Of a stretch of DNA of 64,000 bases, positions 47,172 to 56,997 are shown one piece after another. The notes beneath the pieces were generated by a model. The model saw only the letters and a list, made by a program, of their open reading frames with translations. It did not search any database and was not told the origin of the DNA. Source of the stretch: Ohtaekwangia koreensis (lineage in GTDB: Bacteria > Bacteroidota > Bacteroidia > Cytophagales > Cyclobacteriaceae); assembly GCF_900167975.1 (NCBI RefSeq), contig NZ_FUZU01000002.1, positions 317,501-381,500 on the forward strand. Reading direction: 5' to 3'. The position numbers and the translations under genes are program-made. Numbering within the stretch: the stretch's first letter is position 1; each line of letters opens with the position of its first letter.

Positions 47172-47843
47172 ATGACACGATATCGATTGGCGTGGTGGAA
47201 AGTCTTAACGCTTATACTGCTATATTATACAGCCATTGGCGGCTTTCTGCTTCCGGTTCCACGACTGCACATTCTCAATGAAAGTATACGCCTTAATTAC
47301 TTTCACGTGCCCATGTGGTTTAGCATGATGTTTCAGTTCGCTTACTCGGTATGGTACTCGATACGATACCTGCGCTCATCCGCTATCGAAGATGATGACC
47401 ACGCGTTCGTTGCTACACAAGTTGGTTTTCTGTTTGGTGTACTCGGCCTCATAACGGGGTCACTATGGGCCAATGCAACATGGGGCACTTTTTGGACGAC
47501 CGACCCCAAGCTGAACAACACCGCCATCGGACTCATGATATACGCTGCCTACTTTGTATTGCGTGGCGGCCTGCAAGACGAAACCCAGCGCGCGAGACTA
47601 AGTGCCGTCTACAATATTTTTGCCTTTAGTATATTTATACCGTTGATATATATACTTCCGCGCATGACGGATTCGCTCCACCCTGGCAGTGGCGACAACC
47701 CTACGTTTCGTCTTTTTGACACCGCACATAACATGAAGCTGGTGATCTATACTTCCATCATTGCCTTTATTATGACTGGCTGGTGGTTTAAAACTATACT
47801 CTTCCGCCTACGAACCCTAACCCGACTACACCATGAAATATAG
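47172..47843 (+). CDS. ccmC: Cytochrome c biogenesis heme-handling protein CcmC
   Basis: 223 aa with six membrane helices. Family marks: YFHVPMWFSMM (conserved His near the second helix), the WWD-type segment GSLWANATWGTFWTTDPKL and a late His in DTAHNMKLV. CcmC binds heme for delivery to CcmE in cytochrome c maturation. It overlaps the ccmD-like gene by 11 bp. CcmB, CcmE and CcmF genes are not in this window. Confidence 0.9.
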   Translation: MTRYRLAWWKVLTLILLYYTAIGGFLLPVPRLHILNESIRLNYFHVPMWFSMMFQFAYSVWYSIRYLRSSAIEDDDHAFVATQVGFLFGVLGLITGSLWANATWGTFWTTDPKLNNTAIGLMIYAAYFVLRGGLQDETQRARLSAVYNIFAFSIFIPLIYILPRMTDSLHPGSGDNPTFRLFDTAHNMKLVIYTSIIAFIMTGWWFKTILFRLRTLTRLHHEI

Positions 47844-48057
47844 CATCGCTCTCATCACAATCATATTACTTGCCTGCTCATTACAAGCTTTTGCCCAAGA
47901 CAACACTCCCGTTGAAATGGCCGACACCTTGAGACGCGATGGAAAGATATATACCGTAGTAGCCGGACTCGTAGTAATACTCACCGGCTTTGTTGTATTT
48001 CTGATACGCGTAGATCGTAAACTTCACAAAATGGAAGAAGAGGCTAAGCAGAATTAA
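47833..48057 (+). CDS. CcmD-family protein
   Basis: 74 aa. A signal-like N-terminal helix (IALITIILLACSLQAFAQ) is followed by a second membrane helix (YTVVAGLVVILTGFVVFLIRV) and a short charged tail (DRKLHKMEEEAKQN). The size, helix plus VDRKLHKME tail, and overlap with ccmC are typical of Bacteroidota CcmD, which assists heme release from the CcmC complex. Confidence 0.8.
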   Translation: MKYSIALITIILLACSLQAFAQDNTPVEMADTLRRDGKIYTVVAGLVVILTGFVVFLIRVDRKLHKMEEEAKQN

Positions 48058-48631
48058 GAATTAGCGACCAAGAAGCGAGGAGTGGCATGCTGCCATAATT
48101 GCCGGCTTGCCAAAGAATCGTTGGATTTAAGTGCTATTTTTCCAAAATGTCCTAAAGGGTAGGTAAGGCGTTCCTAAGGCGTTCCAACACCCCCTGATTT
48201 TTTGAGCCACTCTGGCAGGAAACAGAATTAAATTCTGTTTTGCATACAGTATATTTTATATCGCCCCTCACCATGTACTTTCGAAGGAGGCATAGCAGAG
48301 AAATCCTTGCTCGAAGCAACTCACTCGTTATACTATAATCATTCGGTAAGTAAAACTACTGTTTCGGAAACAAAATAATATTGTTGGGAAGGAAATTTGA
48401 TAGGCTTATATACTCAATTTGATTTAGTTATCTTTAATAGAGCGATATAGATATATTTGCATGCCCAATAATTACTCAAATAAACATCAATTGATATTGA
48501 TATTGATTTCGATTAACTTAAATTAATTATCTACTTGATTGACTTAATTAATTTTGATAGCTTAACTACAAAAAACAACTCTTGATGATAGAATTCGTTA
48601 CATTAGATGCGCTTGACTTTCTATATCTGAA
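48058..48631. other. 574-bp non-coding boundary region of the accessory segment
   Basis: No supported gene is seen. It holds a tandem 11-mer TAAGGCGTTCC repeated exactly at 48164-48174 and 48175-48185, and a palindrome at 48220-48240 (AAACAGAATT and its complement around one base). There is a TATATTTG at 48452-48459 (TAnnTTTG-like) without a clear -33 partner. Base composition turns AT-rich from about 48.35 kb, which marks the left edge of the accessory segment. No tRNA or att-like duplication was seen. Confidence 0.6.
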
Positions 48632-49333
48632 ATGATTCAAACTGACATTCCGAAAAAAATTACTCCAGATCCTATAGTCGACTCTGTTGTCGAGTTTAGA
48701 TTCTCCTCTCAACATCCCAAAGATAGACTGACTACGTTGCTACTAAATCACTTCAGTGTTGAGTTCCCTTCCTTTAGAGATTTTGCACCCCAAATTGGGT
48801 TTCCGCTTGAGTTCACAACGAAAGTATCCTTACACAATGATAATTTTAACGTAAACATCGGCCCGAATGTAATTTCTTTTGGATGCATGAATAGCTATAA
48901 AGGATGGTCTCCTTTCTCAGCAATTGTTACAGAGACCATGCATAACCTTAGTAAACAAGGTTTAATAAACGAAATCGAAAGAGTTGGATTGAGGTACATC
49001 AATTTTTTCAAAAATATTATGTTGATCTCTCAAAACACGAATCTTGACATTAGCTTTTCAGGACGTGAAAATTATACTACACGGAGCACTTCGTTAAGAA
49101 CTCAACTCCAAAAAGACCCTTTTATTTTTAATGTAATTATTGCAGACAACGTTGTGCACAATAATGTTCCAGGCTCGATTTTAGATATTGACGTAGCCAC
49201 GGAACATGGCTTAAAAATTAAATTTTCCGACCAGATTATTAGAATTCTAGAGCAAGCTCACAGCGAAGAGAAAATGATATTCTATAGCTTGCTTAAAAAC
49301 GATTTTGTTAAAAAATTCAATCCTGAATACTAG
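48632..49333 (+). CDS. TIGR04255-family protein, lead gene of an uncharacterised three-gene cassette
   Basis: 233 aa. Family features: N-terminal PIVDSVVEFRFSS, the central ERVGLRYINFFKN (GLRYIN signature), a GSILDIDVAT strand and the C-terminal ILEQAHSEEKMIFYSLLKND ending FNPEY. TIGR04255 proteins are sporadically distributed and functionally undefined. The gene is 4 bp from the next one. It is AT-rich, with AAA/TTT-heavy codons, unlike its housekeeping neighbours. No signal peptide or membrane helix. Confidence 0.82.
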   Translation: MIQTDIPKKITPDPIVDSVVEFRFSSQHPKDRLTTLLLNHFSVEFPSFRDFAPQIGFPLEFTTKVSLHNDNFNVNIGPNVISFGCMNSYKGWSPFSAIVTETMHNLSKQGLINEIERVGLRYINFFKNIMLISQNTNLDISFSGRENYTTRSTSLRTQLQKDPFIFNVIIADNVVHNNVPGSILDIDVATEHGLKIKFSDQIIRILEQAHSEEKMIFYSLLKNDFVKKFNPEY

Positions 49334-49337
49334 GATT

Positions 49338-50105
49338 ATGACAGAAGAAATTCCTACTCAGACTGACGCATATAGCAAGCTCTTATGCGAAGCAGCAGGT
49401 ACCTATGAAACCTGGGGAACTGCGCCTGAACATTTCATGATCGCATCGCTAGTTCCACACATCTACTATTCTAACAGTAATTGGAATGTCCAAAAATCGC
49501 TTACCAATAATTTCTTGAGATCATTTGTTGCTTCACAAGGTTTCAACGAAAACATTTTTGACAATAACAAAATTTTCACATTTGCTCTTGACTATCCAAG
49601 AGCAAATGGAACTGCACTTAGTGGCCAAGATTTCGAAATGGTTTCCGACCTTGATATTAAAATTGCGAAATTAAACTCTCACTATGAGAAGGAGAAAGAA
49701 GCTGTCAAAGAATTTTTAGGAAATAAGTCGACCGTATTTGATGACAGTGTAAAGAATATCATAGTCACGGTAAGCGCATTAAAAATTCCTACTATAAACT
49801 TAGAACTAAGAGATGAAGCGACAATAATATTCAAACTAAAACTCGATGACTTAGGAAAGATAATGTTCAGATACCACTTGGATGAACCTAGTCGATGCAC
49901 TTACAGCTATTTCAAGAAAGCCTTATGCATAGAAAATGGTGTTGGAAGCTTAAAAGACGTTATACTGGATATAAAGAAAATTATTTTTCAAGCTAGAATA
50001 CAAACTTTGTTGCATTCAAGGCGACCTGAAATTAATTCCGCAATTGAAAACTGGAAGAATTCGTTTGTCGATGTCCTATCCTCAGGAGTTACTACCCAAA
50101 TATAA
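49338..50105 (+). CDS. Uncharacterised protein, second gene of the TIGR04255 cassette
   Basis: 255 aa from ATG 49338; an upstream TTG (49305) lies inside the previous gene and is unlikely. No family is recognised. Visible features: TYETWGTAPEHFMIASLVPHI near the N-terminus, a charged helical part (SHYEKEKEAVKEFLGNK) and a C-terminal helix before SSGVTTQI. No membrane segment and no nuclease, NTPase or protease motif is seen. It overlaps the third gene by 35 bp, so the three are probably made together. Confidence 0.78.
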   Translation: MTEEIPTQTDAYSKLLCEAAGTYETWGTAPEHFMIASLVPHIYYSNSNWNVQKSLTNNFLRSFVASQGFNENIFDNNKIFTFALDYPRANGTALSGQDFEMVSDLDIKIAKLNSHYEKEKEAVKEFLGNKSTVFDDSVKNIIVTVSALKIPTINLELRDEATIIFKLKLDDLGKIMFRYHLDEPSRCTYSYFKKALCIENGVGSLKDVILDIKKIIFQARIQTLLHSRRPEINSAIENWKNSFVDVLSSGVTTQI

Positions 50106-50760
50106 TTATAAGAGTAATATTGAGGTCGAAAGGCTCTTATTATCTCACCCATCAGCTTCCTTACTTAGAAAGTCAGCTGATGGTGCTGATTTATCCGATT
50201 TAAAAGTCCGTGATGTATTTCCTAATAGAGGAAGCCTCTATGGTTTCTCTACCTATTTCTTTGGAGAATTTCTTAATGACCATATTAAGTATAAAACGAA
50301 AACAAGAACTTACTGGAAAGAAGGGGATGCTTGCTTAAAGAGTAAAGATGTTAAGTATACCAATGAATCTTCGCTTGTCTTTCCCCTATATTTTAAACTG
50401 AAGGATTGTCACGAATTGAAAATACCACTGAAGAAAACAGAAAACAAATTAACACAAACAGTGATGTCCACATTGCTTGTTAAACATAGACCGATGTTGG
50501 ATAACTATTGGCATTTTGAATTTGTAGTTTTCGATGAAAGTGGAACGGAGATAGATTCAAGCAATCTTAAGGAGTATCACAAAAAATCTGCATTAGAATT
50601 TGTTGAAGATCAAATTATGACGCTTGTTGATACAAATGATGCAAGTGCGAACAAAATTCAAAATCCGCTCTATAAAAAATCACCTTTTCAATCCTTCAAG
50701 GCATTAATAGAGAGCCGATTTATGTATATACTAGCTCAAATTAAAGATTCGTTTAGGTAA
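50071..50760 (+). CDS. Uncharacterised protein, third gene of the TIGR04255 cassette
   Basis: 229 aa from ATG 50071, inside the end of the second gene in another frame. No family is recognised. It is basic and soluble, with ADGADLSDLKVRDVFPNRGS, SLVFPLYFKLKDCHELKIPL, MLDNYWHFEFVVFDESGTEI and a helical C-terminus ALEFVEDQIMTLVDT. The alternating strands could be a small beta-sandwich or binding domain, but I make no functional claim. The stop is 12 bp from the end of the convergent Xre regulator gene. Confidence 0.78.
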   Translation: MSYPQELLPKYNYKSNIEVERLLLSHPSASLLRKSADGADLSDLKVRDVFPNRGSLYGFSTYFFGEFLNDHIKYKTKTRTYWKEGDACLKSKDVKYTNESSLVFPLYFKLKDCHELKIPLKKTENKLTQTVMSTLLVKHRPMLDNYWHFEFVVFDESGTEIDSSNLKEYHKKSALEFVEDQIMTLVDTNDASANKIQNPLYKKSPFQSFKALIESRFMYILAQIKDSFR

Positions 50761-50772
50761 CTCTGTTGTTCC

Positions 50773-50997
50773 TCAATAATTTATAAGGTCTTTCGGATTC
50801 ACTCTTAATACCCTACCGATCTCAAACAATGTTTCAAGTGAAGGCTGTCGATGGTTATTAACATAACGAGTAACAGTCACAAAATCCTTATCCAACTTCT
50901 CAGCCAACCATGTCTGAGTTTTACCTTGCTCCTCCAATACTTCTTTAATCCGATTTAAAATCGGCTTGGTAGATTTTGTTTTTCTTTTTGCCATCAT
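50773..50997 (-). CDS. Xre-family helix-turn-helix regulator
   Basis: 74 aa, a single HTH_3 domain: LNRIKEVLEEQGKTQTWLAEK is helices 1-2, DFVTVTRYVNNHRQPSLETLFEI covers the recognition helix and following helix, ending LRVNPKDLINY. The N-terminus is Lys-rich (AKRKTKSTKP). It is divergent from a small ORF at 51071 with a perfect palindrome between them, consistent with autorepression. It could alternatively control the convergent cassette. Confidence 0.9.
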   Translation of the reverse strand: MMAKRKTKSTKPILNRIKEVLEEQGKTQTWLAEKLDKDFVTVTRYVNNHRQPSLETLFEIGRVLRVNPKDLINY

Positions 50998-51021
50998 TTC
51001 AAATATCTACCTATCCAATTT

Positions 51022-51047
51022 GGTTATATATAACCGTTTTGGTTATA
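51022..51047. promoter_or_regulatory. Candidate Xre operator
   Basis: GGTTATATATAACC (51022-51035) is a perfect 14-bp palindrome. A half-site copy GGTTATA follows at 51041-51047. It is 25 bp before the Xre start codon and 24-49 bp before the divergent ATG at 51071, so it could control both. Confidence 0.65.
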
Positions 51048-51070
51048 TTGTACTTTCGTTTTAATTGAGA

Positions 51071-51409
51071 ATGAAAAAGATAACGTTGAAAGAAAGTAGC
51101 AAGGAACTACGGAACCGTATACATCATCTTGAATTTAAGTTGGCTCAACATGAAGAGGCACAAAGTCATGCTACACCATACAATAACAAGAATGAAATAA
51201 TAGAAGCCTTAAGCGAACTTTCAGTAGGTATAGATACATACGAGTTTCTGAGTGAGCTTTTCTTTAACTTTTTGGCTAACGAAGTACGCACTACATCCCC
51301 CTCTGAAGAGCGCCTTAATCTATATATAAACACTCGCCATGAGATACACCAGCTTTATGAACTGGCACGTGCTGCTAAAATGCTGCGAATGAAAATGGTT
51401 AATAAGTAA
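51071..51409 (+). CDS. Small helical protein divergent from the Xre regulator
   Basis: 112 aa from ATG 51071 (TTG 51065 is weaker). Mostly helical: TLKESSKELRNRIHHLEFKL, EIIEALSELSVGIDTYEFLS, HEIHQLYELARAAKMLRMKM. No family is recognised. The shared palindromic operator suggests that it is the main regulated target of the neighbouring Xre protein. A toxin-antitoxin role is possible but nothing in the sequence proves it. Confidence 0.65.
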   Translation: MKKITLKESSKELRNRIHHLEFKLAQHEEAQSHATPYNNKNEIIEALSELSVGIDTYEFLSELFFNFLANEVRTTSPSEERLNLYINTRHEIHQLYELARAAKMLRMKMVNK

Positions 51410-51442
51410 ATTATTATTATAGCACTTTAAGAGGCTGCGATC

Positions 51443-51482
51443 TATATCGCGAAGTCCCCGAGGCGGGAGACTTCGCTCGGAC
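51443..51482. repeat. REP-like palindromic repeat, copy 1
   Basis: 40 bp containing GCGAAGTC and GACTTCGC arms, with inner CCG and CGG, making a nested hairpin. A second copy at 52641-52680 matches at 39 of 40 positions. It lies 34 bp after the stop of the upstream gene. Confidence 0.85.
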
Positions 51483-51573
51483 ATAAGCCCAGAGTAAAAA
51501 GAAACAGAAAACAAAAGATCTCGTCAAGATTGCAAATTACCGTATTTTGCAGCTGGACGCTAAATCCTAAAGT

Positions 51574-52110
51574 ATGTCGTTGGGAGAAGACAAGAGTACA
51601 GATGCCGTTTTCGATAAAAAATCCTTTCATTTAGTTGTCCTAATATTGTTCTGTCTCCTTACATCATACTATTTAAAAAGTACCTTTAAACCTATAGAAG
51701 TTAACAAGCTATCCACTATTAAAGGCGCATTGGAAAAAGTTCCTTACTGGGGCGCAACTGGCGGGGACTTCACTTACGAATATGTAGAAATCATCATAGC
51801 AGATGGTAATTACATTCATCTTTCAAGTTGTAGTTATGAGACTTCTGATCTCAATAAAATTCGGCTTCTACAAATAGGAGATTCCATTACATTTCAAACA
51901 AGCGATAGTATCCCCAAAGAAAAAGAATACGAAGTATTTACTATAACTTCCAAGGAGTATGGCAACATATTAACTGTACAAGATTACAATGCTTGTGAGA
52001 AGAACCGCTGGAAGATGGTTTACTACATAGCGTTGGCTTCAGCTGCAATATTGATACTACGGATTGGTATTAGAACATTCGACAAATATATAGGAGATAA
52101 AACCGCGTAG
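51574..52110 (+). CDS. Two-helix membrane protein with an extracytoplasmic domain
   Basis: 178 aa. Membrane helices at about 18-38 (FHLVVLILFCLLTSYYLKS) and 150-167 (MVYYIALASAAILILRIGI) enclose a beta-rich domain (about 40-140) with IEVNKLSTIKGALEK, YEYVEIIIADGNYIHL and ILTVQDYNACEKN. No family is recognised. It could be anchored with both ends inside. Only island-type neighbours are present. Confidence 0.65.
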   Translation: MSLGEDKSTDAVFDKKSFHLVVLILFCLLTSYYLKSTFKPIEVNKLSTIKGALEKVPYWGATGGDFTYEYVEIIIADGNYIHLSSCSYETSDLNKIRLLQIGDSITFQTSDSIPKEKEYEVFTITSKEYGNILTVQDYNACEKNRWKMVYYIALASAAILILRIGIRTFDKYIGDKTA

Positions 52111-52162
52111 TCCTTTAGCACTCACTAAAGCTAAGTGATTTAACAGCGTAACAATATTATGT

Positions 52163-52612
52163 ATGGGCTACTATTTACAAGCTTTTATTGGCAGAGATGA
52201 AGATCTAAAGATCATTGAGAAGAGTTTTGAACACGCTAACGTCATTGCACTTGTTGATCACATTGCTTTACTTCCTTTAACCGAGGAACTATATAATGAG
52301 ATTAATAACTATCAGAAAAGTGAGAGTATAGATACATTTGAATTTTTAACAACAGAAACGGAAAGACAAATATTACAGATCATTCAGCACAAAATGATCG
52401 CTTATGTGGAAGCTGAATATTTCGGAGGAATGGGAAATCAATGTGGAATAATTTGGAGGGATGGGAAAAGAATTTTCAAAAAGCTGGCTGAACAAGACGT
52501 CATAAACATTATACTAAATCAATTCGGCATCAAAAGAAGCAAGTCATTGGATGAGTTTGATATCGTTGGATTGGGAAGATATCGAAATACAAAGGACTGG
52601 AATACTTTATAG
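52163..52612 (+). CDS. Uncharacterised protein, possibly immunity-like
   Basis: 149 aa. It starts MGYYLQAFIGRDEDLKIIEK and has ALLPLTEELYNEINNYQ, MIAYVEAEYFGGMGNQCGIIW (a recurrent pattern in many single-gene accessory proteins) and a C-terminus with LGRYRNTKDWNTL. Soluble and mixed alpha/beta. Size and island setting recall immunity proteins of polymorphic toxin systems, but no toxin is adjacent and the family is not identified. A REP-like repeat follows after 29 bp. Confidence 0.65.
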   Translation: MGYYLQAFIGRDEDLKIIEKSFEHANVIALVDHIALLPLTEELYNEINNYQKSESIDTFEFLTTETERQILQIIQHKMIAYVEAEYFGGMGNQCGIIWRDGKRIFKKLAEQDVINIILNQFGIKRSKSLDEFDIVGLGRYRNTKDWNTL

Positions 52613-52640
52613 TGAATTCACCCGCTGCCGCCCAACTATA

Positions 52641-52680
52641 TATATCGCGAAGTCCCCGAAGCGGGAGACTTCGCTCGGAC
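52641..52680. repeat. REP-like palindromic repeat, copy 2
   Basis: Same 40-bp element as at 51443-51482 with one substitution in the loop (A for G). It lies 29 bp after the upstream stop and directly abuts the 130-bp repeat that starts at 52683. Confidence 0.85.
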
Positions 52681-52682
52681 GC

Positions 52683-52812
52683 AAGAATTGCACTACATTA
52701 CATATCCATTGCACAGGGATAATCCCTGTGCAATAGATGCAAGGCAAATGAGTTCTAATAAAATCAACTATCAACAAAAAATCAATTAAGATTGCTAAGT
52801 AAAGATGTGATT
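52683..52812. repeat. 130-bp palindrome-centred repeat, copy 1
   Basis: The unit runs from AAGAATTGCACTAC to AAGATGTGATT. It has a central stem-loop at 52703-52738 (TTGCACAGGGAT with ATCCCTGTGCAA), then a less conserved arm. Copy 2 at 53822-53950 is alignable over its full length, with matching ends and core. It is upstream of the HD-hydrolase gene by about 90 bp. Confidence 0.8.
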
Positions 52813-52899
52813 CAACCCCATCAGAATCACCGGTTTTCCGGGACTCTGATGTGCTCGCGGCTATAAACGCAATCCATTATTATTATAACTTTATTACAC

Positions 52900-53466
52900 A
52901 TGAAACAACACTGGTCAATAGACGAAGTCCAGAACATCTGGCAACTCGCTTCACGATTACATGACGGACAAAAATATGGTGGCTCCAATGAAGGCGAAAA
53001 GATCGAGTATATAAATCACATCGGCAGCGTAACGTTTGAAATTTTAAATGCTATACACTATACCGAAGATATAGATGCAGGTCTCGCTATCAAATGTGCG
53101 ATCTTACACGATACCATTGAAGATACCTCCTTTACCTATACGAAAGTAAAAGAGCTGTTTGGTGATGAGGTTGCCAACGGTGTTATGGCATTGTCTAAAA
53201 ATGATAAAATTGAAGATCATCTTGAGAAGATGCTCGATAGCTTGAAGAGGATCAAACAACAGCCTAAAGAAATCTGGGCTGTCAAGCTGGCAGATAGAAT
53301 TGTAAACCTATACGAACCTCCTTACTCTTGGAACAACGACAAGAAAAAGAAGTATAAAGAAGAAGCTGAAATTATACTGAAAGAACTTGGCGATGGAAAT
53401 AAATACCTCTCCGACCGACTGCGCAATAAAATAGCCAGCTATGATCGCTTCATAACTGGCAGTTAA
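52900..53466 (+). CDS. HD-domain phosphohydrolase, candidate small alarmone hydrolase
   Basis: 188 aa. The HD domain runs through most of it: YINHIGSVTFEIL supplies the first His, CAILHDTIEDTSFTY the HD and following ED pair, and WAVKLADRIVNLYEPP the last Asp. This spacing fits the stand-alone hydrolases related to the N-terminal half of SpoT (MESH1/small alarmone hydrolases), which remove pyrophosphate from (p)ppGpp. No synthetase domain is present. A hairpin at 52819-52851 lies between the repeat and the start. Confidence 0.82.
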   Translation: MKQHWSIDEVQNIWQLASRLHDGQKYGGSNEGEKIEYINHIGSVTFEILNAIHYTEDIDAGLAIKCAILHDTIEDTSFTYTKVKELFGDEVANGVMALSKNDKIEDHLEKMLDSLKRIKQQPKEIWAVKLADRIVNLYEPPYSWNNDKKKKYKEEAEIILKELGDGNKYLSDRLRNKIASYDRFITGS

Positions 53467-53570
53467 GGTGTGCAGCTAACGGCTGCCAATGATAATCTAT
53501 GATCAGATTCAACTTTTATTCCTCTTAAGTACTTTTTTCATATTAGCTTTGTGTCTATATAAGTTGCTCG

Positions 53571-53810
53571 ATGAAAAAGCAGTTCTTCACATACTCGTCA
53601 ATAATACTGGCAATTCTCCTGATCTTTCACATTGTGAAGTTCACACAACGTTCTTCGGAATATGCACTTAACGGTGCAGGAGATTTTCTCTACGGTCTTC
53701 TCAAAACACTAACGTGGGCATTCCCTATATACCTGGTCTTAGCAGTGATCGGTGGTTATGTAGTCGCGCTGATACGGAAGAACCGCGGGCAGAGGCTTGG
53801 GGAGAAATAA
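53571..53810 (+). CDS. Small two-helix membrane protein
   Basis: 79 aa with hydrophobic helices at about 7-24 (TYSSIILAILLIFHIV) and 48-68 (AFPIYLVLAVIGGYVVALI), and a basic tail (RKNRGQRLGEK). Positive-inside bias puts both ends in the cytoplasm. No family is recognised. It is followed by the second 130-bp repeat. Confidence 0.6.
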   Translation: MKKQFFTYSSIILAILLIFHIVKFTQRSSEYALNGAGDFLYGLLKTLTWAFPIYLVLAVIGGYVVALIRKNRGQRLGEK

Positions 53811-53821
53811 ACTAATAAAAT

Positions 53822-53950
53822 AAGAATAGCATTATTTCACATATCCATTGCACAGGGATTAATCCCTGTGCAATGGATACAGGCACATAAGCACTGATGA
53901 AATCAAATGCCCAACAAAGCATTATATCAGTTTAAGATAAGGATGTGATT
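53822..53950. repeat. 130-bp palindrome-centred repeat, copy 2
   Basis: 129 bp homologous to 52683-52812. Its centre, 53842-53879, is a perfect 38-bp palindrome with GGGATTAATCCC at the middle. The right end (AAGGATGTGATT) runs to within 20 bp of the start of the next gene. Confidence 0.85.
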
Positions 53951-53968
53951 ATTATCAACATGCCATTA

Positions 53969-54463
53969 ATGAAATCGCTAGTAACCATACTTCTTCTCTT
54001 ATTATCAGGCAATGTGTATAGCCAATCAAACAATAGCGACACCCTCATCATCACTTTGGATGAGAATAAACAATGGCTAACTAAATTTGAAGGGAAAGAC
54101 CTGAAAGATAAACTCACTATCATCCGAAACAGAATCTTATCCGACACAGCAATCTATATCAGGCAAACTTTTGCTGATAGAATAAGGGTGGAAGACCAAT
54201 ACACACATGAAAAAAGAATTGAGGGTACCTGTAAACCATTATTCATTCTTGGCAATCAACCCATATACATTACTAATCAAACCAGTAATAAACAAATTGA
54301 AAATTTAGTGGAGCTCATTAATGTCCACAATATCAAAGATGTGAGAATTTTGAATGACAGTACAGCACCGGCTATCTATGGATCAAAAGCAATTTGTGGT
54401 GTCATTATCCTCGACCCTAAAATAAAAAATGCAGGGAAAATTAATCCTTTGCCCTGGGATTAA
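53969..54463 (+). CDS. Secreted protein with a stand-alone TonB-plug-like domain
   Basis: 164 aa from ATG 53969, chosen because it gives a clean signal peptide (KSLVTILLLLLSGNVYSQ); ATG 53960 and GTG 53945 are possible. After an unassigned N-terminal part, NIKDVRILNDSTAPAIYGSKAICGVIILD closely follows the conserved plug segment of SusC-type TonB receptors (normally v-l-K-D-a-s-A-a-a-i-Y-G-s-r-g-A-n-G-V). No barrel follows. The last codons and the stop lie inside the palindrome at 54444-54479. Confidence 0.72.
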   Translation: MKSLVTILLLLLSGNVYSQSNNSDTLIITLDENKQWLTKFEGKDLKDKLTIIRNRILSDTAIYIRQTFADRIRVEDQYTHEKRIEGTCKPLFILGNQPIYITNQTSNKQIENLVELINVHNIKDVRILNDSTAPAIYGSKAICGVIILDPKIKNAGKINPLPWD

Positions 54464-54479
54464 TCCCCGGGCAAAGGAT
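54444..54479. repeat. 36-bp near-perfect palindrome at a gene end
   Basis: An 18 + 18 bp palindrome with one mismatch. It shares the ATCC, TTGC and GGGATTAATCCC positions with the centres of the 130-bp repeats at 52.7 and 53.8 kb. The outer flanks are not alignable with those copies. It contains the stop codon of the upstream gene. Confidence 0.75.
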
Positions 54480-54516
54480 AAGATTGGTATATTAGATCTC
54501 TGCAATCACCTGATAT

Positions 54517-56997
54517 ATGCTAACAACCCATCTTAAAGTAGCTCTCCGTCATCTCATCCGAAGCAAGATCTTCACACTTATTAACGTTATCGGACTTGCT
54601 ATAGGTATATCCGCTTTTCTGCTTATTGCTCATTATATAAGTTTTCAGCTGAGCTTCGATCAATTTCATTCCAACAAAGACTATATATACCGTGTCGGGC
54701 TGAAGAGGTACGAAAATGGTGAGTTGGTGGAGACTTCGGCAAAAACATTTCCGGGTGTACGTGCGCTATTAAAAGAACACTTCCCCGAAGTGCAGAGTGT
54801 TACCGGGTTTTACAAGATTCCAGCCAATACCGGATTTTTATTTCGCCATCAAGGCAAAATATATAATGAGACCGGGGGATGGCTTAGTTCTGATTCCGCA
54901 TTCTTTACAGTGTTTCCTTCGCTTCTTCTTCGTGGTGATGCAGCAACAGCAATGAAGGAGCCGAACAGTATTGTAATTTCAGAGGCTGTTGCAAAGAAAT
55001 TATTCGGAGATAAAGATCCGGTTGGTCAGGTACTCGATAGAATTGACGACCACTCGGAAGGAGGACACTATACTATACGCGGTGTACTAAAAGATATACC
55101 GGGCAATGCACACTTTCATGCAACCATTGTCGAGCAGATTAACGACAGTCGGCCGGAACAAGAAACGGAGTTATGGGAAGAAGGAAGGCTTGCTACGTAT
55201 GTAACCTTTTCAGAAAAGATACAACCCGATGTAATCGAACAAAAATTAAATCTATTACTCGACAAATTAAAAAAGGAACATAAACTGGTTGAAAACACAA
55301 CGCTATATCTGCAACCCGTTACCGACATTCATTTGTCATCACACTGCAAAGATGAGCTTGAAGCGAATGGCAATAAAGGATTACTATATCTGCTAGGTAG
55401 CATCGGGGTTATCATTCTTACTCTTGCCTGGATAAACTATATTAACCTGGAGACATCCAGATTTGTATCGCGCACAAAAGAGTTTAGCGTAAGGCGGATC
55501 ATTGGCTCGGGCAAACGTAATCTGGCAGCACAATATTTAACAGAGTACTATTGTCTCACTATGGCTGCGCTTATCCTATCCGTTGTAATCATTGTTTCTT
55601 TTTCACCGCATTATTCTGATCTTATCGGCACTCAACTGCAACGCATATCACTGGATCAGCCGATGGTATGGATAGCAGCATCGATTTTATTTTTGCTTGG
55701 ATCGATTGCTGCCGGAATATACCCTGCCATTTTTCTGTTAAGGTTCAATCCGGTAAATGCGATCAAAGGTGCAGTGAGTAAATATAGGACCGGCAACAAA
55801 GTGAGACAGACTCTTGTCGTGTTTCAGTTTACAGTTTCTATCATTCTAGTTGCGTTTGTTATAACCGTACATCAGCAACTGGATTTCATGAAGCTGATCA
55901 ATAAAGGTATTGAGCTTGAAACCGTAGTGGCCATCAGAAATCCGACAGCATATTCAAATCAGGAACTCACGACTAAATATGGTGAGTTTGAAAGTCTTGA
56001 GAATAAACTGAAACAGTATCCAGCGGTCCAATCGGTAGCGAGTTCGTCTGCTATACCAGGATCAGAGATCGGGTTCAATTATATTAACCTGATCAAGCGA
56101 AATATAGGCGATCCATACGACCCTGCGGTCTATAAAACGCTCTTTGTGAGCGCAGACTTTATTGAAACCTATAACATTGACATTCTTGCAGGCAACACGT
56201 TTGAAATTCCCTCAAACTTCAATGGCACAGCCCCGTGGGAAACTGCCAACTGGTCGTCAGTGATTCTGAACGAACGTGCTATACGACAACTGGGATTCCC
56301 ATCTGTAGCAGAGGCTATAAATCAGGAAATATACTTTACAGCATTCGATGAACCCTTGAAGTGCCGCATCATTGGTGTCATTAAAGACTACCACCATGAA
56401 GCAAGCCGGAAAGAAGTATACCCAACAATACTATTCCACAACTACGCAAGCTTTCAGCAGGTATATTTCTCGGTACGTCTGAAAGAAGGTAGTCGCCCGC
56501 AAGAATCGTTGTCGCAAATTGAAAATACGTGGAAAGAGCTTTTCCCTGACCGACCTTTTGATTACTTCTTTCTCAATGAATACTACGACCACCAATTTAG
56601 AGGTGAACTATATTTCCAGAAGATATTCACATTGTTTGCAGGTATAGCCATTATAGTCGCATGTCTGGGAATTATAGGCATGACGCTCTTTGAAATGAAT
56701 TCGCGGTTAAAGGAAATCAGCATACGGAAAGTTCTTGGAGCATCAGTATTAGGGGTTACGGTACTCTTATCGAAGACTAATGTGAGGCTCATTGCAATTG
56801 CAGCCGCTCTTGCTACACCACTCATATACATCCTTGCTAAGGAGTGGCTCTCTGTTTATCCCGAAAGAATTCAGTTAACGGCATGGCTTGCATTATTGCC
56901 TGTGGTAATCATCATGGTTATTGTACTACTAATCTCCGGAGTACAAACAATAAAAGCAGCAAGTGCAAATCCGGTTGATCATTTGAGGGGAGAGTAA
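54517..56997 (+). CDS. MacB/FtsX-type ABC transporter permease (four-domain form)
   Basis: 826 aa. Start motif HLKVALRHLIRSKIFTLINVIGLAIG is the standard opening of this Bacteroidota family. TM1 is about 20-40, followed by a periplasmic MacB core domain, a FtsX block (about 290-420), a second core domain (about 450-660) and a second FtsX block ending GVQTIKAASANPVDHLRGE. The cytoplasmic loop KEFSVRRIIGSGKRNLAAQ and its repeat KEISIRKVLGASVLGVTVLL confirm the duplication. No ATPase gene is adjacent, so the partner is elsewhere. Confidence 0.9.
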   Translation: MLTTHLKVALRHLIRSKIFTLINVIGLAIGISAFLLIAHYISFQLSFDQFHSNKDYIYRVGLKRYENGELVETSAKTFPGVRALLKEHFPEVQSVTGFYKIPANTGFLFRHQGKIYNETGGWLSSDSAFFTVFPSLLLRGDAATAMKEPNSIVISEAVAKKLFGDKDPVGQVLDRIDDHSEGGHYTIRGVLKDIPGNAHFHATIVEQINDSRPEQETELWEEGRLATYVTFSEKIQPDVIEQKLNLLLDKLKKEHKLVENTTLYLQPVTDIHLSSHCKDELEANGNKGLLYLLGSIGVIILTLAWINYINLETSRFVSRTKEFSVRRIIGSGKRNLAAQYLTEYYCLTMAALILSVVIIVSFSPHYSDLIGTQLQRISLDQPMVWIAASILFLLGSIAAGIYPAIFLLRFNPVNAIKGAVSKYRTGNKVRQTLVVFQFTVSIILVAFVITVHQQLDFMKLINKGIELETVVAIRNPTAYSNQELTTKYGEFESLENKLKQYPAVQSVASSSAIPGSEIGFNYINLIKRNIGDPYDPAVYKTLFVSADFIETYNIDILAGNTFEIPSNFNGTAPWETANWSSVILNERAIRQLGFPSVAEAINQEIYFTAFDEPLKCRIIGVIKDYHHEASRKEVYPTILFHNYASFQQVYFSVRLKEGSRPQESLSQIENTWKELFPDRPFDYFFLNEYYDHQFRGELYFQKIFTLFAGIAIIVACLGIIGMTLFEMNSRLKEISIRKVLGASVLGVTVLLSKTNVRLIAIAAALATPLIYILAKEWLSVYPERIQLTAWLALLPVVIIMVIVLLISGVQTIKAASANPVDHLRGE

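Follow-up and report, generated by a model that had tools for sequence, protein, structure and literature searches.

Three-gene TIGR04255 cassettes with exchangeable third genes, probably a phage-defence or toxin-antitoxin device

The three genes and their relatives

Do three tightly packed genes of Ohtaekwangia koreensis, only the first of which belongs to a named family, form one unit, and what might such a unit do? The genes lie in the window (the whole 64,000-nucleotide stretch that was analysed, positions 317,501 to 381,500 of contig NZ_FUZU01000002.1 in GCF_900167975.1), and are referred to here as A, B, and C:

48632..49333 (+), gene A, 233 aa, TIGR04255 family, with a predicted two-lobed fold nearest to TBP; the constant component
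49338..50105 (+), gene B, 255 aa, no known family, the middle gene; proposed neutraliser/adaptor of C
50071..50760 (+), gene C, 229 aa, a divergent member of a "HxPxxxNYxH" group of third genes; proposed toxin/effector

The preliminary description of this locus, a TIGR04255 gene followed by two unrecognised genes across a 4-bp gap and a 35-bp overlap, in an AT-rich island with repeats and an Xre gene after it, is confirmed. B from its ATG at 49338 leaves the 4-bp gap after the stop of A, and C from its ATG at 50071 overlaps B by 35 bp. The motif "YP" stands near the N-terminus in all four relatives of C, as in "MSYP" of the window, which supports that start, although in one relative (L034) it follows about 23 extra residues of the listed ORF. 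A matches TIGR04255 (NCBIfam) over residues 10-230 at 4.7e-25 and 88.8 bits, where the curated cut-off is 30, and PHROG 5464 at 3.8e-21. B and C have no match that passes a cut-off in Pfam or NCBIfam, none in PADLOC-DB up to E 1, and in PHROGs only B has a match, at 0.0093, to a family of unknown function. Neither has a solved relative or a membrane-like stretch (best 19-residue Kyte-Doolittle means 1.08 and 0.69). G+C is 35.0% for the cassette, 36.3% for 48058-54463, and 41.9% for the rest of the window. The repeats comprise a 48-nt pair at 51440 and 52638 and palindromes at 53842 and 54444. The Xre-type gene at 50773-50997 is real (HTH_3, 9.7e-12) but convergent, and none was seen by eye beside the three related loci whose downstream sequence was listed (L033, L034, and L044, introduced below), so it is not considered part of the cassette. 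No Rfam match was found in 47800-54600, and promoter- and terminator-like sites are no more frequent than in shuffled sequence.

Conservation of B and C together with TIGR04255 proteins had been named beforehand as the condition on which the unit would stand or fall, and it was found. TIGR04255 is present in 26 of 341 genomes of the order (28 loci) and in 24 of 395 genomes of the phylum (23 over the cut-off; 26 rows, 25 of them new), with the genome of the window counted in both. Among ORFs of the order loci, C matched, besides itself, one ORF each in loci L015 (2.1e-5) and L023 (2.1e-4), both downstream of A, while plain blastp with B matched none of the middle genes there. Longer stretches (L033, from genome G225, and L034, from genome G338) show three genes in the same order. 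A profile of C found itself and one further genome of the 395 (locus L042), and two loci in 84,980 species genomes: L043, taken to be the same as L033 (Belliella calami), and L044, a Bacteroidetes MAG. Thus five distinct loci hold this C (the window, L033, L034, L044, and L042), and all five have a middle gene and an A-position gene upstream in the same order. In the window, L033, L034, and L044 the genes lie on one strand with overlaps or short gaps; in L042 the A-position ORF of 199 aa is not recognised as TIGR04255 and only the LRY motif lines up (hhalign E 0.02), so that A is recognisable in four of the five. The relatives of C share HxPxxxNYWH.

The middle genes are related to B. The middle gene of L042 is found by phmmer at 3e-4, and a profile of the four middle genes finds B at 2.3e-6 (both with database size set to 1000). 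The hhalign score is 23.8 over residues 113-215, against at most 19.3 in 100 shuffles of B, although the probability given by hhalign itself is only 5%. The three ORFs are more than chance: A and C have diverged homologues in the same order elsewhere, and B is found by this profile. Single pairs other than L042 with B, and L033 with L044, were not significant, and B shows no relation to the middle genes of other cassette types (hhalign E 0.03 to 0.46).

Searches with B or C as single proteins found nearly nothing. B matched one other of the 341 genomes at 8.6e-4, a short match with a stop inside (locus L003, in genome G091, which has no TIGR04255 match); neither B nor C matched in plasmids, and C had no match in phages. 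In viral contigs there was no match to the profile of C, to a further profile (A3), to A of locus L018, or to C of loci L007, L014, and L018, while A of phage Dobby found only two copies of itself.

Exchange of the third gene and placement of the cassettes

The trio is one version of a larger module. Of the 53 TIGR04255 loci of both surveys, 47 have a third-gene candidate; L005, L025, L027, L028, L102 (contig ends near) and L122 (below the cut-off) do not. Third genes and their motif labels were chosen by eye from ORF listings, and 54 of them (the 47 plus L042, L044, and five from phages and plasmids) were then clustered automatically, giving 17 groups by phmmer and 13 after profile rounds at E 1e-3 with database size 1000, with no detected relation between the groups. 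The largest has 16 members with a motif such as SNTCD, SQSCD, or SQACD ("SxxCD"). The next has 12 members and holds C of the window, whose group of five was joined to the NYSH/NYAH group through one protein, L042, at 1.3e-4; hhalign of the two profiles gives a score of 24.6 (E 0.0067, probability only 6%) against at most 15.7 in 199 column shuffles (at most 20.1 in an earlier set that included faulty runs). The place of C in this NYxH group rests on one bridging protein and a short motif. Four third genes form a HEPN cluster, in which the Pfam cut-off is passed only by the Thermus plasmid protein (PF05168, 4.2e-6, 27.4 bits, cut-off 22); L037 (the longer stretch of L008) and L100 score 18.2 and 17.7 bits, and L046 has no Pfam hit but joins at 2.3e-6. 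Four are PemK/MazF-like, of which the one scanned, L108, scores 50.4 bits (PF02452, 3e-13, cut-off 23.1). One is DUF7689 (1.7e-40), and the rest have no family. Only two of the groups are known toxins, both RNase families.

Linkage was also examined from the other side. A scan of 2.9 million viral contigs with an alignment of nine SxxCD third genes, using no information on A, gave 46 loci, and a profile built from 25 A proteins finds A upstream in 44 of them. Of the other two, the match in L083 starts at base 7 of the contig, while L084 has ORFs of fitting size and place in which A is not recognised. Some loci are near-copies, leaving 36 distinct A proteins. In 34 distinct B proteins of this type (L081 gave no B by the filter used) the A-B distance is -29 to +17 bp and the B-C distance -16 to +26 bp; these B proteins have a moderately hydrophobic stretch near the N-terminus (best means 0.76-1.98), a variable middle, and a similar C-terminal tail. 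By tblastn, C of Dobby hits four phage records, all among the five hit by A of the window, and one plasmid, one of two hit by A; two of the four phage records are the same phage and a third is identical over C. B of L100 found only the known Thermus record in plasmids, and C of L103 found none.

In a tree of 64 A proteins the eight partner labels need 13 changes, where 7 is the least possible, while shuffled labels need 33 on average and none of 200 was as low; partners travel with A but are swapped. For this tree 65 loci were chosen, near-copies and broken A genes were left out, and L017 dropped out because the A profile missed it. PemK and one unknown type are single clades, while HEPN, SxxCD, and NYxH need 3, 7, and 7 changes. 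The four NYWH A proteins form one side of a branch with weak support (73/70) and lie among A proteins with mostly SxxCD partners; however, long branches make single placements unsure.

Cassettes sit in temperate phages and on plasmids. In phage VW-6S the cassette begins 217 bp after the CI repressor gene, and in Dobby, a Peduoviridae phage, it lies beside the portal gene. The site of P2 between the replication endonuclease and portal genes has been described as one that holds defence systems (PMC9519451), but in the Dobby-like contig L055 the gene on the other side is an integrase, not a replication gene, so the sites need not be the same; a literature search for Dobby or its genus with defence listed no paper with those names. 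In Sulfurimonas phage SNW-1 the cassette lies in the stretch with genes annotated CII and HTH regulator and has a HEPN-cluster third gene. It also lies on a Phocaeicola plasmid after an ORF that looks like an integrase by eye, and on a Thermus plasmid about 1.6 kb from cas6. Of 75 proteins flanking 20 representative viral loci, 7 match integrase phrog_1, 5 integrase phrog_216, and 5 CI-like phrog_6201, the commonest families among the 25 of 114 listed (one protein may match several); others match terminase, endolysin, antitermination, or nothing known. L038 lies directly downstream, on the same strand, of type I methyltransferase (2.7e-175), PDC-S04 (3.3e-159), and specificity subunit (3.4e-55) genes, and L040 lies beside two pieces of an AbiLi-like gene, while the tested neighbours of L018 and L033 gave nothing. 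The two further genes tested in the island of the window (52163-52609 and 52900-53466) match nothing in PADLOC-DB, so this island is not shown to be a defence island.

Predicted fold of A

With 28 aligned proteins, AlphaFold2 predicts A at pLDDT 89.3 and pTM 0.86, with the order strand-helix-strands-helix about twice. The two halves of A compared with each other by sequence give E 0.062, so the internal repeat is seen in the predicted fold only. Foldseek against the PDB gives eight matches at E 1e-3 or better: two chains named TBP (3oci), two of 3eik ("double stranded DNA binding protein", a TBP), two unnamed chains of RNA polymerase III initiation complexes (probably TBP), and two AdoMetDC prozyme chains; three further TBP entries follow. 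The E values of the best matches, TBP-type and AdoMetDC-type chains, are 2.6e-4 to 5.8e-4, and the best has probability 0.99, but whole-chain TM-scores of the TBP-type matches are only 0.26-0.34 and rmsd 10-11, so the lobes are arranged differently or the likeness is partial. Among viral models the best is A0A515MGR4, unnamed (1.7e-6, TM 0.50/0.57). No solved structure is related by sequence (best E 0.13), and the A profile matches no RnlA or TBP among sequences of solved structures up to E 10. A is acidic (median pI 5.35 in 28 proteins, 6.38 in the window), which speaks against a simple DNA-binding role. An AlphaFold model of C from three sequences reached only pLDDT 38 and was not used.

Proposed function and alternatives

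The preliminary interpretation, an obligately linked and sporadically spread trio that might be a new defence or conflict system, is partly supported: the unit is conserved, sporadic, and seen in mobile and conflict contexts, but it is not a closed system, since A stays while the third gene is exchanged, and defence activity remains unshown, as that description had allowed. The explanation favoured here, about as likely as not, is a tripartite toxin-antitoxin-like module, most probably anti-phage, in which C would be the toxic effector, B its cognate neutraliser made just before it, and A a conserved scaffold and sensor with a predicted TBP-like fold that holds the B-C pair silent. When a phage product binds A or removes it from the complex, B would be lost or displaced and C would stop the cell or the phage. 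The second gene precedes and often overlaps the third, as antitoxins do, and carriage near CI, integrase, or portal genes of temperate phages fits exclusion of other phages. The analysis itself establishes the gene order and linkage, the exchange of third genes, the known toxin families in third position of other cassettes, the carriage by temperate phages, and the fold of A as a prediction; the toxicity of C of the window, its neutralisation by B, the sensing of phage by A, any protection, and the order of events are inferences. Against this reading, C of the window has no nameable catalytic motif, six loci have no recognisable third gene, and most third-gene groups are not known toxins. Matches to PADLOC-DB models are also unconvincing: A of the window reaches only 0.0094 (type II restriction enzyme model), and of nine C proteins and one A (that of Dobby, without a match) from relatives, only HEPN-type C (2e-5 and 0.0088) and C of L034 (mad7, 0.0073) gave anything.

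The model is drawn by analogy, not homology, with the toxin-antitoxin-chaperone (TAC) system CmdTAC, where newly made capsid protein draws the chaperone away, the antitoxin is degraded, and the toxin is freed (PMC11618068). TAC systems likewise have three genes with variable toxins, but a SecB relation of A, considered at the outset, is not supported: A has no Pfam match up to E 1, and SecB is absent from the 50 rows examined of 1122 PDB fold matches. PemK/MazF and HEPN toxins occupy the third position of some cassettes, yet there an extra TIGR04255 gene comes first, and C of the window belongs to neither family by Pfam. The gene arrangement fits a type II toxin-antitoxin system, in which a protein antitoxin from the same operon inhibits the toxin, but known toxins occur as C only in relatives, not in the window. 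Panacea and other partner-swapping antitoxins also pair one conserved component with many unrelated toxins (PMC10440598), but as two-gene pairs with the antitoxin as the constant part, while here the constant part is a further gene in front.

TIGR04255 has been a name without a function, and its entry as shown is defined on A alone, without B, C, the swapping of third genes, or the fold; no paper in the literature searched, which lacked most subscription journals, bioRxiv preprints, and supplements, contains TIGR04255, phrog_5464, or DUF7689. Tripartite toxin-antitoxin and defence modules are already known, and the cassette is placed among these as a version built around TIGR04255, with a real chance that A defines a new class. 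It is possible, though rather less likely than not, that TIGR04255 proteins are the constant sensor/scaffold, with a TBP-like fold new to this role, of a large undescribed class of prophage- and island-borne tripartite immune modules, and that most of the toxins exchanged around this hub, including the NYxH group, are new families. If the favoured reading is right, it adds a class of immune modules with a new kind of sensor/scaffold and several unknown toxin families, and makes directly testable the function of a family found in about 6-8% of the Bacteroidota-group genomes sampled and in temperate phages of other bacteria.

Other explanations are less likely. A split enzyme resembling RNase LS (RnlA-RnlB), with A as the nucleic-acid-binding, substrate-recognising half, C as the catalytic half, and B as the antitoxin, is suggested by the TBP matches of A, by the HEPN and PemK families in third position, with a TBP-like A beside a HEPN-cluster C in four loci, and by reported RNase LS HEPN domains fused to a TBP-like domain, which in RNase HIII binds DNA-RNA hybrids (PMC3710099). 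It remains unlikely given the acidity of A, the low TM-scores, the lack of RnlA or TBP matches to the A profile, and the absence of any HEPN match in A, B, or C of the window in Pfam up to E 1. The cassette also differs from RNase LS in its separate genes and additional gene B. Slightly less likely still is an addiction operon like omega-epsilon-zeta, with A only an autoregulator, B the antitoxin, and C the toxin; the order regulator-antitoxin-toxin, the PemK and HEPN third genes, and carriage on phages and plasmids would fit, but A matches no DNA-binding family in Pfam or NCBIfam and is acidic (574 bp separate ccmD from A).

A phage-borne counter-defence or lysogeny-fitness set that later settled in chromosomes, protecting the prophage from host systems rather than blocking other phages, is also unlikely. 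Many copies lie in viral contigs with integrase and repressor genes near by and one lies directly downstream of host type I restriction genes, but known toxins as third genes do not fit plain counter-defence, and many chromosomal copies have no phage genes visible by eye in the few kilobases listed. That the copy in the window is an accident, with A having lost its system beside unrelated accessory genes, is very unlikely. Although the island is low in G+C and carries repeats, and C is rare (the genome of the window and one other of 395 phylum genomes by profile), this reading is already contradicted by the same order and close packing, with related B and C, in four other loci.

The AT-rich island around the cassette

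The following features lie in and beside the island:
47172-48057, ccmC- and ccmD-like genes
50773-50997, convergent Xre-type regulator
51440-51487 and 52638-52685, 48-nt element in two copies
52900-53466, stand-alone HD-domain protein
53842-53880 and 54444-54480, two related palindromes

The ccmC- and ccmD-like genes, named by eye, are present without ccmE and ccmF; in all 9 relatives listed a ccmE-like ORF follows ccmC, while here the AT-rich island begins. A second ccmC with ccmE- and ccmF-like ORFs lies at G000:C6, so the window holds a second, shortened copy. The Xre-type regulator has 74 amino acids (HTH_3, 9.7e-12) and lies 12 bp after C, the third gene of the cassette, but none was seen beside the three related cassettes looked at. 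The HD-domain protein, in the same AT-rich island, is related to the hydrolase part of RelA/SpoT (HD_4, 3e-7; spoT_relA, 6.9e-12), and is perhaps a small alarmone hydrolase.

Repeated elements

The 48-nt element contains an inverted repeat, and its two copies are 92% identical and 1198 bp apart; its 34-nt core occurs nowhere else in the 7.24-Mb genome when up to 2 mismatches are allowed. The palindromes are each about 37 nt and frame a small ORF.

Cassettes at other loci

Four TIGR04255 loci of the phylum survey (L105, L107, L112, and L118) have a third-gene family starting MFLAR/MYLAR with a longer middle gene, and the one pair scanned, that of L112, has no Pfam family. At another locus, L038 (5738-11604), a TIGR04255 cassette with a DUF7689 third gene lies directly downstream of type I restriction-modification genes and a PDC-S04 gene. 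In the viral contig locus L084 (2006-4624), the A-position ORF (209 aa) is not recognisable as TIGR04255, although a B-like ORF and a third gene of the SxxCD type follow; a HicAB-like pair, identified by eye, lies just upstream.
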